From Eubacteriales bacterium (GTDB taxonomy: Bacteria > Bacillota > Clostridia > Oscillospirales > Acutalibacteraceae), in NCBI GenBank assembly GCA_029219885.1, contig JAQXUH010000058.1:1-40933 (forward strand): a DNA stretch of 40,933 nt. Reading direction: 5' to 3'. Below are positions 33,784 to 40,933 of the stretch, one piece after another. The position numbers were made by a program, and so were the translations under genes. How positions within the stretch are numbered: the first letter of the stretch is position 1; every line of letters begins with the position of its first letter. The notes under the pieces were generated by a model that saw nothing but the letters and a program-made list of their open reading frames with translations, made no database searches and was not told the DNA's origin.

Positions 33784-34695
33784 TCAATTTTCCTTGTACG
33801 TCAATACCGATGAAGCATCAATACCGATACCGTCGGTAACAAAGGTGATACTGCCGTTCATATCCGTTCTGTAATATGCGATGCCTCTGCCGTCAAGTCT
33901 GTCTGTCAGTTCGCTGTGAGGGTGACCGTATCTGTTATCCTCACCGCATTCTATAACGGCATATTCAGGTGAAACAGCGTCAAGAAATTCATCACAAGTG
34001 GAATATTTACTGCCGTGATGACCGACCTTTAAAACATCGGCATCAAGGGAAGAATAGGAGTTTTCCAGCATTTCTGCCTCGGAATCTTCACCTGCGTCAC
34101 CTGTAAAGAGAAACGAAACATCATTATAAGTAAGCTTAAGCACAGCGGAATAATCGTTAGTGTCCTGATAGCTGTCGCTGACAGGAGCAAGAAACTCGCC
34201 TGTTATATCATCAGTAAAGGTGATTTCCGTACCTGCTTTGGCAGTATTTATTGTCAGCCCCTTGCCATCAATTGCCGTGAGCATATCCTCAAATGCTTTA
34301 GTGTTTGAAGTTGCATAAGGCATATAAATCTCGCCTATGTCAAAATCTTCAATAATACTGCTCATACCGCCCATATGGTCTGTATGAGGATGAGTGGCAA
34401 CAAGATAATCAATTTTTGAATAACCTGCCTGGGAAATCTTTTCCTCAACCTCGTCGGAATAATACTTTTCGCCGCTGTCGATAAGCATACATTCACCGTT
34501 TGGAAACTCGATAAACTCGCAGTCACCTTGACCGACATCAACAAAAGTGACGGTCATTACGCTTGATGAATCGGCTGAAACAGAGGAAGTCTTTTCCTCA
34601 TCACCTGACGAAACCCGACCTGAAACTGCAACTGCGACGGCAACAACTAAAACCAGAATAACGCTGATAAGTGAGTTACGTTGCTTGCTGTTCAT
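33784..34695 (-). CDS. Membrane-anchored or secreted ComEC-like MBL-fold protein
   Basis: A stand-alone metallo-beta-lactamase domain of the ComEC C-terminal type. Residues 7-25 form a hydrophobic signal or anchor without a lipobox Cys, followed by a Ser-rich linker. From residue 47: VTFVDVGQGDCEFIEFPNG, THPHTDHMGG (His102, His104, Asp106, His107), FTGDAGEDSE, VGHHGSKYST and RYGHPHSELTDRL. All metal-binding positions look intact. Known relatives act as extracellular nucleases or phosphodiesterases, or aid DNA uptake; the role here is not shown. It starts on the hisD stop (one-base overlap) and precedes a DUF3006 gene, so it sits inside the his transcript. comEC elsewhere in the window has lost this domain's motif. 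Confidence 0.88.
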   Translation of the reverse strand: MNSKQRNSLISVILVLVVAVAVAVSGRVSSGDEEKTSSVSADSSSVMTVTFVDVGQGDCEFIEFPNGECMLIDSGEKYYSDEVEEKISQAGYSKIDYLVATHPHTDHMGGMSSIIEDFDIGEIYMPYATSNTKAFEDMLTAIDGKGLTINTAKAGTEITFTDDITGEFLAPVSDSYQDTNDYSAVLKLTYNDVSFLFTGDAGEDSEAEMLENSYSSLDADVLKVGHHGSKYSTCDEFLDAVSPEYAVIECGEDNRYGHPHSELTDRLDGRGIAYYRTDMNGSITFVTDGIGIDASSVLTYKEN

Positions 34696-35991: not shown

Positions 35992-37605
35992 TTACACCTT
36001 TGAAGCAAGCTCCAAATCGTTAAGGAAATTCTCGATTTCCTCTTTACGAAGCTTCATAGAAGCCATATTTACAATAACTCTTGCGGAAACAGGCATTATC
36101 TCGTCCACAACCTCAAGTCCGTTTTCCTTAAGTGTTGAGCCTGTTTCAACTATATCTACAATACCATCGGCAAGACCTAAGAGAGGTGCTAACTCCACAC
36201 TTCCCTCAATCTTGATGATATCAACATCCATACCCTTTGATTTGAAATATTCCCTTGCAACCTTAGGATATTTACTTGCAACAACCTTTCTCTTATAACC
36301 TGAGAAGAAGTCGCTGCCCTTAGGACAGGCAAGAGCAAAACGGCATTTACCGATATTAAGGTCAATTACCTCATAAAAAGAGCTGCCGTGCTCCACAATA
36401 GTATCCTTGCCCACAACACCGATATCACATACGCCATGCTCAACATAGGTGATAACATCAGGTGCCTTTGACAGTACAGCCTCATAATCACCCACAGGAA
36501 GAATAAGTCGGCGTCCTTTATTTTCAAGCTCCTTGGTGTCAAGTCCCATAGTCTTGAAGAGAGCAACGGATGACTTTTCAAGTCTGCCTTTAGTAAGTGC
36601 AATTCTCAGCGGTCGGTCAATATTAATTTCTTCACGCATAACATCGCACAGAGCAGAAACATTTACACCGAAGCCAACAGCAGGAGCGTCAAGACCAAAT
36701 TCACCGATAAGGTTGTCATATCTGCCGCCCGAAATAATAGTTGCACCGCTGCCCTGAGCGTAACCCCTGAATATAATTCCGGTGTAGTAATTACTTCTAT
36801 TTACAAGGCTCAAGTCGATAAGTATATCGTTTTCAAAGCCTAAAGCACAAAGCTTTTCATAAACTGTTTTAAGATATTCAAGAGCCTCGTCTGTTTTCTC
36901 GTCGGAATAAATAGCTCTTGCCTCGTCAATAACCTCTGCACCGCCGAAAAGCCTTGGGAGCTTTTTGATAATTTCAGCTTCCCTGCTGTTACCGAGAGCG
37001 TCAAGATAGTCGCCTAAAGCGGAATAATTCTTGCCCTCAACAAAATTGCAGATATCAGCCTTCTGCATATTTGTCAAATTCATTTTATCAAGAATCGCAT
37101 TGAAAAATCCTGCGTGGCAGATTTCAATTTTAAATGACGAAACATTATTCCTTTTAAGAGCCTCATAAGCCATTGAAATAACTTCAATATCAGCATCAAT
37201 ACTGCCGTCGCCGATAAGCTCTATACCGCTTTGCTCAACCTCATCAGTCCTGCCTGCAAGCTGTTTGTTGCGGATGTAGACGCTCTGATTATAGTAAAGT
37301 CTTACCGGGAAATCGTCAGCCGAGAGCCTTGTTGCAACAAGACGGGCAATAGGTGCAGTGTTGTCAGGTCTTAAGACAGTAGTTCTGCCTTGATTGTCAG
37401 AGAGCTTATACATCTCCTCTGCCTCAATACCTAAGTTACCGCTGTCAAAAACATCAAAAAACTCTATAGTCGGAGTCATTACCTTTCTGTATGACTTTTC
37501 TTTAAAAAGCTGAGAAAGACACGCTTCAACCTTTCTTCTGTCGTCACATTCCTCAAAGAGCAAATCTCTGCTGCCCTGAGGTGTAAGCCTTGAATATCTT
37601 TTCAT
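35992..37605 (-). CDS. hisZG: HisZ-HisG fusion: ATP phosphoribosyltransferase regulatory plus catalytic subunits
   Basis: First step of histidine synthesis, joining ATP and PRPP. One 537-residue open frame holds both subunits. Residues 1-325 are HisZ, a HisRS paralogue: LTPQGSRDLLFEECDDRRKV, LRPDNTAPIARLVATRL, LYYNQSVYIRN..AGRTDEVEQSGIE, and ISGGRYDNLIGEFG. Residues from about 331 are the short-form HisG: RPLRIALTKGRLEKSSVALF, GVCDIGVVGKDTI, the PRPP loop LADGIVDIVETGSTLKENGL (about 488-507), ending near 537 with no C-terminal ACT-like domain. In most bacteria with short HisG the two are separate genes forming a hetero-octamer. The junction (around base 36615) has almost no linker. First gene of the his run, with promoter 50-80 bases upstream. 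Confidence 0.95.
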   Translation of the reverse strand: MKRYSRLTPQGSRDLLFEECDDRRKVEACLSQLFKEKSYRKVMTPTIEFFDVFDSGNLGIEAEEMYKLSDNQGRTTVLRPDNTAPIARLVATRLSADDFPVRLYYNQSVYIRNKQLAGRTDEVEQSGIELIGDGSIDADIEVISMAYEALKRNNVSSFKIEICHAGFFNAILDKMNLTNMQKADICNFVEGKNYSALGDYLDALGNSREAEIIKKLPRLFGGAEVIDEARAIYSDEKTDEALEYLKTVYEKLCALGFENDILIDLSLVNRSNYYTGIIFRGYAQGSGATIISGGRYDNLIGEFGLDAPAVGFGVNVSALCDVMREEINIDRPLRIALTKGRLEKSSVALFKTMGLDTKELENKGRRLILPVGDYEAVLSKAPDVITYVEHGVCDIGVVGKDTIVEHGSSFYEVIDLNIGKCRFALACPKGSDFFSGYKRKVVASKYPKVAREYFKSKGMDVDIIKIEGSVELAPLLGLADGIVDIVETGSTLKENGLEVVDEIMPVSARVIVNMASMKLRKEEIENFLNDLELASKV

Positions 37606-37697: not shown

Positions 37698-40600
37698 TTA
37701 AAAGAGTGAAATTTGGTTTGATTCAGGCATATTGCCAAGTGCTCCTGCTTCCTTAAGAGAGTCAACAACACTTCTGCCCACACCTGCCCTTGCCATAAGG
37801 TCATCATAAGAGAGGAAATCTCCGCCGCCGTCATTTCTTGAATCTGCAATAGCCTTGGCAGCGTTTTCGCCTATTCCGTCAATTGCACCGAAAGGCAGAC
37901 GGATTTTGCCGTCTTCGATAACATAAAGTCTTGAATCGGACTTGTAAATATCAACAGGCAAAAATTCAATTCCCCTTGCAAGCATTTCAATAACAATCTG
38001 ATTTACGACGTAGGTTGATTCCTCTTTCGCCGTAACAGGAATATTATTTTTCTTTTTATTCTTATACTCCTCCATTTTCTTCTTAACGGCGGCCTTGCCC
38101 TGAACGGCTGCAACAGCGTCGATAGCACCGCCTCGAACGGTGAAGTATGCAGAATAAAACTCAATAGGCTTGTATATTTTGTACCATGCAAGGCGAAGTG
38201 CCGCAATAACGTATGCCGCAGCGTGTGCCTTAGGGAACATATACTTAATCTTATAGCAGGAGTCGATATACCACTGTTCAACACCGATTGTTTTCATAGC
38301 CTCCTCGTATGGCGGAAGCTCTTTCGGTGCTTTACCTTTACGGGTATACTCCATAATTTTGAAACAGTCTTTTTTGCTTAAAGGCGACTCTTTGCCTGTT
38401 TCTCTCTCATACTTTTCAGCAACGTGGATAAGGTGAGTCATAATATCGTCACGGCATCCGATAACCTCTGAAATTGTGCAGGTGCCGTTTTGGATAAGCT
38501 CCTGAGCGTTGCCGAGCCAAACATCAGTACCATGAGAAAGTCCTGAAATCTGGAGCAAGTCGGAGAAGGTTTTAGGCTGAGCCTCTTCAAGCATACCGAT
38601 AACAAAAGGTGTACCCATTTCAGGAATAGCAAGAGTACCGGTAGTACAGTCAATATCCTCAGGAGAAACGCCGATTGGCTCGGTAGATGTAATCAGCTTA
38701 TAAAGCTGCGGGTCGGACAAATCAACATCCATAACAGGAATACCGGTGGAATCTTCAAGGTATTTATAAAGTGTAGGATTATCGTGTCCAAGCTCGTCAA
38801 GCTTTAAAAGCGTGTCGTGAAGTGAATTTTTAAAGTCGAAATGAGTTGTGTATGTACCCTTTTTCTCATCATTTGATGGATACTGAATAGGGGTGAAATC
38901 TTCAACAGTATACTTGTCCGGAACAACAACCATACCGCCCGGGTGCTGACCTGTTGTACGCTTAATACCTGTACAGCCAACTGTCAGCCTGTCAATTTCT
39001 GCCCTCGGAGTAGTCTGCTGTAAGCCTCTTTCGTCAAGATATTTCATTACATATCCATAGGCGGTTTTGTCAGCAACAGTTGCCATTGTTCCTGCCTTGA
39101 ACACATACTCCTTACCGAAAAGCTCCTCAGTAAATCTATGAGAGCGTGACTGATATTCGCCTGAAAAATTAAGGTCGATATCAGGCTCCTTGTCGCCGTC
39201 AAAGCCAAGGAATGTTTCAAAGGGAATTTCGTGGCCGTCACGCTTCATCGGCTCACCGCAGACAGGACAGTTTTTCGGTGGCAGGTCAAAACCTGAACCC
39301 ACTGAGCCGTCAAGGATAAATTCGCTGTGCTTACACTTTTTGCAGTAGTAGTGTGGTGCAAGAGGATTAACCTCTGAAATACCGCCCATATGAGCCGCAA
39401 ATGATGAGCCAACCGAACCTCTTGAGCCTACAAGATAGCCGTTTCTTTCGCTTTCCTCAACAAGTCGCTTTGCGATAACATAAAGCACGCCGAAGCCGTG
39501 ACCGATAATAGAGTCAAGCTCTCTTTGAAGTCTTGATGCAACATACTCAGGAACAGGGTCGCCGTAAAGCTCCTTTGCTCTGTTCCAGCATTTTTCCGTC
39601 AGCTCCTCGTTAGCACCGTCAATATGAGGTTGGAATGTTCCGGGAGGGATAGGCGGAATATCATCCATAATGCTGTCTGCAATTTTCTTTGGGTTGTCTA
39701 TAACAAATTCTCTTGCTCTGTCGCCTGCCCAAGCAAAATCGTCAAGCATTTCTCTCGTTGTTTTAAAGTAGAGAGGTGCCTGATTGTCGGCATCGTCAAA
39801 GCCTTTAGATGCCATAATAATTGCCCTGAACTTAGCGTCCTTTTCATCAAGGAAATGAACGTCGCCTGTTGCAACAACAGGCTTGCCGAGCTCGTCTGCA
39901 AGAGAAATTATTTTTTTGTTAATATTGATAAGGTCCTCTTCGCTGTGGATATCCTGATGAAGCTCCTTGTCGGACCTAATCATAAATGCGTTGTTGCCGT
40001 TTGGCTGAATTTCAAGATAATCGTAGAAATCGGCAAGCTTTAAAAGCTCGTCGTCAGGAACTTTATTGAGTATTGCCTGATAAACCTCTCCCTGTTCACA
40101 GGCAGAGCCTACAATAATACCTGCCCTTTTTTGTGCCAGAAGGCTTTTTGGAATAAGTGGGCGAGATTTAAAATACTTTACGTTAGATGCAGAAATCATT
40201 TCGTAAAGATTTTTCCTGCCGTACTTTCTCTCCTCTTTCGGAATGTTTTCGTCCATAGAGGTATCCTCTTTAACAAGGAGGATAATATGATGACGCTTAA
40301 ACTGCTTAAGCTTCATATTCATAAAGTCAGGATATTTCTCGTCATCAACGAGATAGCCTTCCATACCGAGAATAAGCTTAATCTTACCGCCGGCAGCCTT
40401 ATACGCCTCGGGAAGTGCCTGAACTACGCCGTGGTCCGTTACTGCAATAGCAGAATGTCCCCACTTGATAGCTCTTTTAATTATATCTTTAGGTGCGGAA
40501 ATACCATCCATTTCCGACAAAGAAGTATGGAGATGAAGCTCAATTCTCTTTTCTTCCTCATCATCCATTTTTTCGATTTTCTTAATACCTGCTATGGCAT

Positions 40601-40933
40601 TCGGTCTTAAAACGTACTGATTTGAATATGTATCAAACTGATAACCGCCGCTGATAACAAGAGTTTTATTATCCTCAAGCTTTGCAATAAGGCTGTCTAT
40701 AATGTTCTTGTCGTCAAACATTTTTACAGTCATTGACGAGGTGTAGTCTGTTATATCAAAGTCGAAAATCTTGCTTGTGCCACGCTTGGTATCTCTGACC
40801 TCTGTTTTTATAACATCGCCCCAAACGGTAATGTATCCGTCATCGGAAACAACATCTGCAATATTCTTCGGCTTTTCCGTAATATTTCTGCCGTGAATTT
40901 TCTTGAGAGTGTCTTTATAGAGAGGAAGGTCGT
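37698..40933 (-). CDS. polC: DNA polymerase III alpha subunit, PolC type, without exonuclease domain (N-terminus cut by window edge)
   Basis: Replicative polymerase of low-GC Gram-positives. 1077 residues are visible and the frame runs off the right edge. Numbered from Met at 40733: the 66 residues before it and the first 60 are the OB fold (VWGDVIKTEVRDTKRGTSK upstream); PHP domain about 62-310; palm with catalytic PDIDLNFSGEYQ; the PolC zinc site YYCKKCKHSE...KNCPVCGEPM; fingers with RTTGQHPGGM; C-terminal clamp motif QISLF. The PHP domain runs GMEGYLVDD (123-131) straight into the segment with HHIILLVK (148-155), where other PolC proteins carry a roughly 160-180-residue DEDD exonuclease. 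PHP metal ligands all seem present: His67, His69, Asp76, Asp100, His101, Glu125, His148/149, Cys212, Asp291, His293. PolC identity is certain; how proofreading is done is open. Confidence 0.96.
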   Translation of the reverse strand, partial: DLPLYKDTLKKIHGRNITEKPKNIADVVSDDGYITVWGDVIKTEVRDTKRGTSKIFDFDITDYTSSMTVKMFDDKNIIDSLIAKLEDNKTLVISGGYQFDTYSNQYVLRPNAIAGIKKIEKMDDEEEKRIELHLHTSLSEMDGISAPKDIIKRAIKWGHSAIAVTDHGVVQALPEAYKAAGGKIKLILGMEGYLVDDEKYPDFMNMKLKQFKRHHIILLVKEDTSMDENIPKEERKYGRKNLYEMISASNVKYFKSRPLIPKSLLAQKRAGIIVGSACEQGEVYQAILNKVPDDELLKLADFYDYLEIQPNGNNAFMIRSDKELHQDIHSEEDLININKKIISLADELGKPVVATGDVHFLDEKDAKFRAIIMASKGFDDADNQAPLYFKTTREMLDDFAWAGDRAREFVIDNPKKIADSIMDDIPPIPPGTFQPHIDGANEELTEKCWNRAKELYGDPVPEYVASRLQRELDSIIGHGFGVLYVIAKRLVEESERNGYLVGSRGSVGSSFAAHMGGISEVNPLAPHYYCKKCKHSEFILDGSVGSGFDLPPKNCPVCGEPMKRDGHEIPFETFLGFDGDKEPDIDLNFSGEYQSRSHRFTEELFGKEYVFKAGTMATVADKTAYGYVMKYLDERGLQQTTPRAEIDRLTVGCTGIKRTTGQHPGGMVVVPDKYTVEDFTPIQYPSNDEKKGTYTTHFDFKNSLHDTLLKLDELGHDNPTLYKYLEDSTGIPVMDVDLSDPQLYKLITSTEPIGVSPEDIDCTTGTLAIPEMGTPFVIGMLEEAQPKTFSDLLQISGLSHGTDVWLGNAQELIQNGTCTISEVIGCRDDIMTHLIHVAEKYERETGKESPLSKKDCFKIMEYTRKGKAPKELPPYEEAMKTIGVEQWYIDSCYKIKYMFPKAHAAAYVIAALRLAWYKIYKPIEFYSAYFTVRGGAIDAVAAVQGKAAVKKKMEEYKNKKKNNIPVTAKEESTYVVNQIVIEMLARGIEFLPVDIYKSDSRLYVIEDGKIRLPFGAIDGIGENAAKAIADSRNDGGGDFLSYDDLMARAGVGRSVVDSLKEAGALGNMPESNQISLF

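Follow-up and report, generated by a model that had tools for sequence, protein, structure and literature searches.

A clostridial PolC without its exonuclease: apparent repeated loss of the insert and a conserved PHP metal site as candidate proofreader

Described PolC forms and the gene in the window

PolCs without the inserted exonuclease were described in 2013 and, in the available text of that survey, make up 6% of PolCs, all from Clostridia and Negativicutes except for one extra copy in Thermotogae (Timinskas et al., PMC3919608). The same text reports strong conservation of the PolC PHP ligands and states that the division of replication and proofreading between PolC and DnaE1 is experimentally uncharacterised (PMC3919608). 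Natural Geobacillus PolC has the exonuclease, which, by the accessible portion of the structural report, was removed for the 3F2B construct (PMC3656037). M. tuberculosis DnaE1 proofreads with a nine-ligand PHP site, and the available sections of that study report that D23N and D226N abolish the exonuclease and that a loop lining the PHP groove is the insertion point of the PolC exonuclease (PMC5636811).

The window analysed here, 40,933 nucleotides long, is the complete contig C58 of genome G000, from a gut bacterium of the Eubacteriales. Its last ORF, 1077 residues and open at the contig edge, is a PolC by curated NCBIfam models (PRK00448, 1350 bits, cut-off 873; TIGR01405, 1251 bits, cut-off 1043). 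Pfam recognises OB (below cut-off), PHP, polymerase, finger and HhH domains (Table 1), and OB-fold rows are also among the fold-comparison matches for the region of residues 1–124. The structure model (mean pLDDT 76.7, pTM 0.51) is good for PHP and poor for the polymerase core, and whole-chain fold-comparison rows have an rmsd near 9. We take D584, D586 and D712 to be the catalytic aspartates of the polymerase, and QISLF at the C-terminus to be a beta-clamp-binding-like motif.

Table 1. Features of the window polC gene; residues are numbered along the visible chain.
Feature	Position	Strand	Remark
polC, 3' 1077 codons and stop	37698..40931	-	~194 further codons on contig C8 of G000
OB-fold region, visible residues 1-124	40560..40931	-	PF01336 at residues 41-100, 21.1 bits, below curated cut-off 27
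PHP domain, residues ~125-424, uninterrupted	39660..40559	-	
23-residue loop E191-H215, usual DEDD exonuclease site	40290..40358	-	row comparison
PHP ligands H133, H135, D142	40506..40535	-	
PHP ligand H167	40431..40433	-	
PHP ligand E191	40359..40361	-	
PHP ligand H215	40287..40289	-	
PHP ligand C278	40098..40100	-	
PHP ligands D357, H359 (GDVH)	39855..39863	-	
Polymerase aspartates D584, D586 (PDIDLNFSG)	39174..39182	-	kept in all covering rows except decayed copy G021b
Third polymerase aspartate D712	38796..38798	-	row comparison
C-terminal beta-clamp-binding-like motif QISLF	37701..37715	-	

The locus is thus an insert-free PolC in a clostridial genome that also encodes a DnaE, probably DnaE1. 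Insert-free PolC, DnaE partner and conserved PolC PHP ligands are shared with the exo-less PolCs of the 2013 survey (PMC3919608), from which the window PolC differs in no defining way; here the loss is genus-wide, one of about six in the order, and a conserved DnaQ partner was not seen. The initial annotation had left it open whether this form had been described before, and the survey answers that it had. The architecture is already known; what this analysis adds is the history of the losses and the contrast between lineages that have a helper DnaQ and those that lack one.

Among solved structures, 3F2B of Geobacillus kaustophilus aligns over residues 22–1077, and the natural window PolC resembles this engineered construct, crystallised without its N-terminal domain and exonuclease. 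Geobacillus PolC differs in having GNVH in its PHP, with one ligand altered, and, according to the available sections, no PHP exonuclease activity (PMC5636811). The DnaE1 polymerases of M. tuberculosis and Thermus share the nine ligands, the uninterrupted PHP and a loop at the same place, in M. tuberculosis the groove-lining loop of the available sections (PMC5636811), but they carry OB at the C-terminal side, and it is for them that PHP activity has been demonstrated.

Absence, distribution and history of the exonuclease

The absence of the exonuclease from the window PolC is genuine and not an artefact of assembly. No RNase_T domain was found by Pfam in the 1077 visible residues (E 0.001). 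As first noted, the chain runs from GMEGYLVDD through 15 residues to RHHIILLVKEDTS, leaving 23 residues between E191 and H215 where 23 exo-bearing rows have 197–219; over 80 PolC rows this spacing is bimodal, the other 57 having 10–39. All 32 intact same-genus rows have the 23-residue loop, with a recognisable YP-F--K pattern. These rows, which include cultured Eubacterium coprostanoligenes (type strain), represent 31 of 37 genomes, two copies coming from G035; the other six (G004, G010, G012, G020, G029 and G031), with only PolC fragments or an irregular frame, were left out. With the insert lost, a short conserved loop would close the PHP domain, as it does in DnaE polymerases.

The 5' part of the gene lies at the end of contig C8, which overlaps the window end by 618 bp at 98.4% identity and encodes the N-terminal domains of PolC, the OB region and the beginning of PHP (PF11490 at 29.8 bits, above cut-off; PF14480 and OB below). 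A full-length relative, G018 (1271 aa, 94% identical), has PolC N-terminal domains, OB and PHP, with PF11490, PF14480 and OB all below cut-off. Neither the C8 part nor G018 has a PF00929 match (E 0.01); the exo-bearing control G044, scanned with them, shows RNase_T at residues 454–607. These results answer the possible objections that the initial annotation had named: an exonuclease upstream of the visible part, a frameshift or an assembly gap. C8 and C58 differ by 1.6% in the overlap, owing either to mixed strains or to another, almost identical copy of the gene; the C8 part is exo-less in both cases. A second complete polC, another such objection, was not found in G000 (85.8% complete), where the search returned only a DnaE. 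Elsewhere in the genus, G035 has two exo-less copies with intact ligands (L018, L050), and in the second copy of G021 (G021b, L051) residues of both PHP and polymerase are altered and the match contains an internal stop.

On C8, polC follows ispG; by eye, the ORFs upstream of polC include rpsB, tsf, pyrH, frr, uppS, cdsA, dxr, rseP and ispG. Against G018, polC has a dN of 0.040 and a dS of 1.008, hence a dN/dS near 0.04, indicating purifying selection. The window PolC appears to be still functional, because of this ratio, the conserved place after ispG, the intact polymerase residues and the QISLF C-terminus. Just downstream of polC, a single ORF of 537 residues encodes a HisZ–HisG fusion (35992–37605, minus strand; TIGR00443 at residues 13–324, TIGR00070 at residues 333–512), followed by hisD, hisB, hisA and hisI, with an MBL/ComEC-C-like ORF (33784–34695) among them.

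Of 394 genomes sampled in the order, 38 have a PolC with one uninterrupted PHP match, and two further genomes, G037 and G062, are exo-less by alignment. In the class, at least 18 of 118 genomes have uninterrupted matches (families f1, f19, f27, f31, f34, f36, f68 and f69). A tree of 61 PolCs, built with the exonuclease columns removed, places exo-less rows in six groups: the window genus with g35, g38 and g43; g26; g39; genus g19 of f19; f24; and f2. Since g35 and g43 join the window genus and g38 with a support of 67 only, the losses could number seven. Six changes are needed on a second tree, from which the decayed copy G021b was left out; same-genus rows were reduced to 14 for both. A single loss was rejected by these six changes and by the rejection of a single clade comprising all 27 exo-less rows that belong to family f1 (p-AU 7e-8, a value that is indicative, as the f1 group was named after a tree had been seen). 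These trees suggest about six separate losses in this order. We infer loss rather than gain because the insert is ubiquitous, as trees alone cannot separate the two, and both trees agree with the proposal of the initial annotation that this lineage lost the insert. The DEDD exonuclease would have disappeared in an ancestor that the E. coprostanoligenes genus shares with at least the neighbouring g38.

PolC itself has apparently been lost altogether in some Clostridia: in family f10 of the order no PolC-level match was found in 20 of 20 genomes sampled (best E no better than 3.5e-14 in 18, no match in 2), and the four genomes of class family f30 gave only weak DnaE-like matches or none.

The PHP metal site

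The window PolC has all nine ligands listed in Table 1, as the initial annotation had noticed, and thus carries the HHDHEH[C/H]DH motif of polymerases with an active PHP exonuclease (PMC12926913). The set is complete in 56/57 exo-less and 23/23 exo-bearing rows, the sole exception being the decayed copy G021b, whose polymerase aspartates are altered too. A further reading covered 25 loci, 15 from genomes already used and 10 from other orders of the class; in 24 the set was complete and one was cut by a contig end. In the 32 same-genus rows, G021b being left out, 98 of the 264 PHP columns are invariant and these include all nine ligands, an outcome with a chance of ~1e-4 if columns are exchangeable. 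The last ligand pair reads GDVH here and GNVH in the solved PolC sequences 3f2b and 9qpc, a difference already pointed out at first reading. GDVH was rejected as a hallmark of exonuclease loss, because it occurs in exo-bearing Clostridia too, where 23/23 rows have all nine ligands. The site had been proposed to be either regained or kept; since it is equally intact in exo-bearing relatives, it was inherited and kept, and regaining is ruled out. D357 presumably occupies the position of D226 in M. tuberculosis DnaE1.

The DnaE of G000, identified by models on a 300-residue piece, has all nine PHP ligand motifs; we infer DnaE1 rather than DnaE3 from this intact PHP and the record titles of relatives, not from a tree. 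MutS was matched in 20/20 genomes searched, in G012 as a fragment only.

On balance, we favour a functional exo-less PolC working with DnaE, the PHP sites of both removing primer-end mismatches. A functional clostridial PolC would be paired with DnaE, its own nine-ligand PHP site would remove mismatched primer ends, DnaE with its complete PHP motifs would contribute to this removal, and mismatch repair would stand behind both. A dedicated DnaQ subunit would not be involved in the window genus, where none is visible in the draft assemblies with the Pfam models used. Set against this reading, the intact PHP does not separate exo-less from exo-bearing Clostridia, and PHP conservation may serve folding, a role proposed for E. 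coli in the accessible part of that paper (PMC3666897). In the open-licence literature we found no exo-less PolC with reported PHP activity and no demonstration of DNA cutting by any PolC PHP domain.

Stand-alone exonucleases and other explanations

That a stand-alone DEDDh exonuclease proofreads in trans is unlikely but has evidence on its side. PF00929 has one match in G000 (C66:6087-6599), a KapD-like protein of 289 residues encoded between secG-like and penicillin-binding-protein-like ORFs (by eye). It belongs to the DEDDh superfamily and keeps, by eye, the DxE, later D and H..D residues; being common in the genus, it could act in trans, and its type (~290 residues) is the only widely shared candidate there. 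However, the nearest model for this separate gene is KapD, where its 59.8 bits fall short of the cut-off of 169; its similarity to DnaQ models is low, and its type also occurs in exo-bearing relatives (it was read in five same-genus genomes and exo-bearing G056, and judged by length and score elsewhere). PF00929 has no match in the exo-less genomes G036 (92% complete), G244 (99%), G059 (86%) and G080 (89%).

Across the 37 same-genus genomes, PF00929 has exactly one match in 23, more in 10 and none in 4. The sole match of G006 and G015 is another, higher-scoring type, and other DnaQ-like genes, judged by match number, length and score, occur in 12/37. E. coprostanoligenes G005 (99% complete) has one PF00929 match, and neither PF13482 nor PF01612 was matched in it or in G000. 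Other DEDD families were rejected as concealed proofreaders: PF13482 was matched in 4/13 genomes, where it hit the PolC exonuclease itself in two and stand-alone DnaQ-like genes in two, and PF01612 in 2/13, below cut-off. A conserved lineage-specific DnaQ is therefore not visible in the genus with the Pfam models used on these draft assemblies. The initial annotation had offered PHP proofreading or a separate DnaQ; the second option finds no conserved dedicated gene here, and because of this PHP proofreading is the best candidate.

Exo-less groups elsewhere add to the case for in-trans proofreading. In f19 a lineage-specific DnaQ-like gene adjoining ispD-like and ispF-like ORFs (L093, L244, L248, L253) is present in 4/4 exo-less genomes tested versus 0/3 exo-bearing ones. 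In f2 one clade of a stand-alone, likewise lineage-specific DnaQ-like gene (loci L094, L240, L246, L249, L251 and L254) occurs in 11/14 genomes tested; among the remaining genomes, G193 carries another type, and G181 (89% complete) and G204 (88%) have none. Because this clade has its sister in exo-bearing f7 (99/96), the f2 helper probably preceded the loss. The f2 and f19 genes make in-trans replacement plausible in these two families; it is not visible in the window genus. In genus g39, also exo-less, a separate stand-alone type occurs that is shared with exo-bearing G043. None of the stand-alone genes placed on trees is the excised PolC exonuclease surviving on its own: on two exonuclease trees the 25 embedded PolC domains form one group (95/87; 98/90) with no stand-alone gene inside. 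The second tree added 18 stand-alone genes after the long-branched or distant G001, G015 and G321 had been dropped; the trees cover only part of the PF00929 matches.

It seems to us quite unlikely that DnaE does the bulk of synthesis, with PolC no longer the main replicase and its proofreading dispensable. The available text of the 2013 survey raises this possibility for Clostridia with PolC and DnaE1 (PMC3919608), and the f10 genomes indicate that PolC can apparently be dispensed with, but the place of polC after ispG, its intact polymerase residues and clamp motif and its low dN/dS all argue for a PolC in use. Replication with no proofreading, fidelity coming from nucleotide selection and mismatch repair and PHP being structural, is improbable: MutS is present and M. 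tuberculosis PHP metal-ligand mutants are less stable, but all nine ligands are kept here, whereas the E. coli PHP, without exonuclease activity, has five of nine altered, both comparisons resting on the available sections of one study (PMC5636811). Finally, a mis-assembled or truncated gene that conceals an exonuclease has practically no chance, for although the window stops inside the gene and the assembly is fragmented (1.89 Mb in 105 contigs), the C8 part, the exonuclease-free scans and the 32 same-genus rows, drawn from 31 separate assemblies that include one of a cultured type strain, all show its absence.

PHP proofreading by PolC and DnaE is the leading candidate explanation. A computational study of ibezapolstat, an inhibitor of PolC, chose PolCs, in its accessible text, by the RNase_T insert in PHP (PMC11963600). 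Such a filter would omit exo-less PolCs, for example those of the 38 or more genomes in our sample of the order. The repeated disappearance of the exonuclease in nature, in some lineages accompanied by a replacement gene and in others not, provides matched comparisons, and cultured E. coprostanoligenes ATCC 51222, which carries the exo-less form without a visible DnaQ, is a good natural test case. We tentatively propose that Clostridia may have dropped the PolC exonuclease repeatedly by two routes, one that recruited a DnaQ and one that left PHP alone in both polymerases. If this is true, the PHP-only lineages, including the window genus, would replicate with an all-PHP-proofread pair of PolC and DnaE and would be, to our knowledge, the first cells known to do so.
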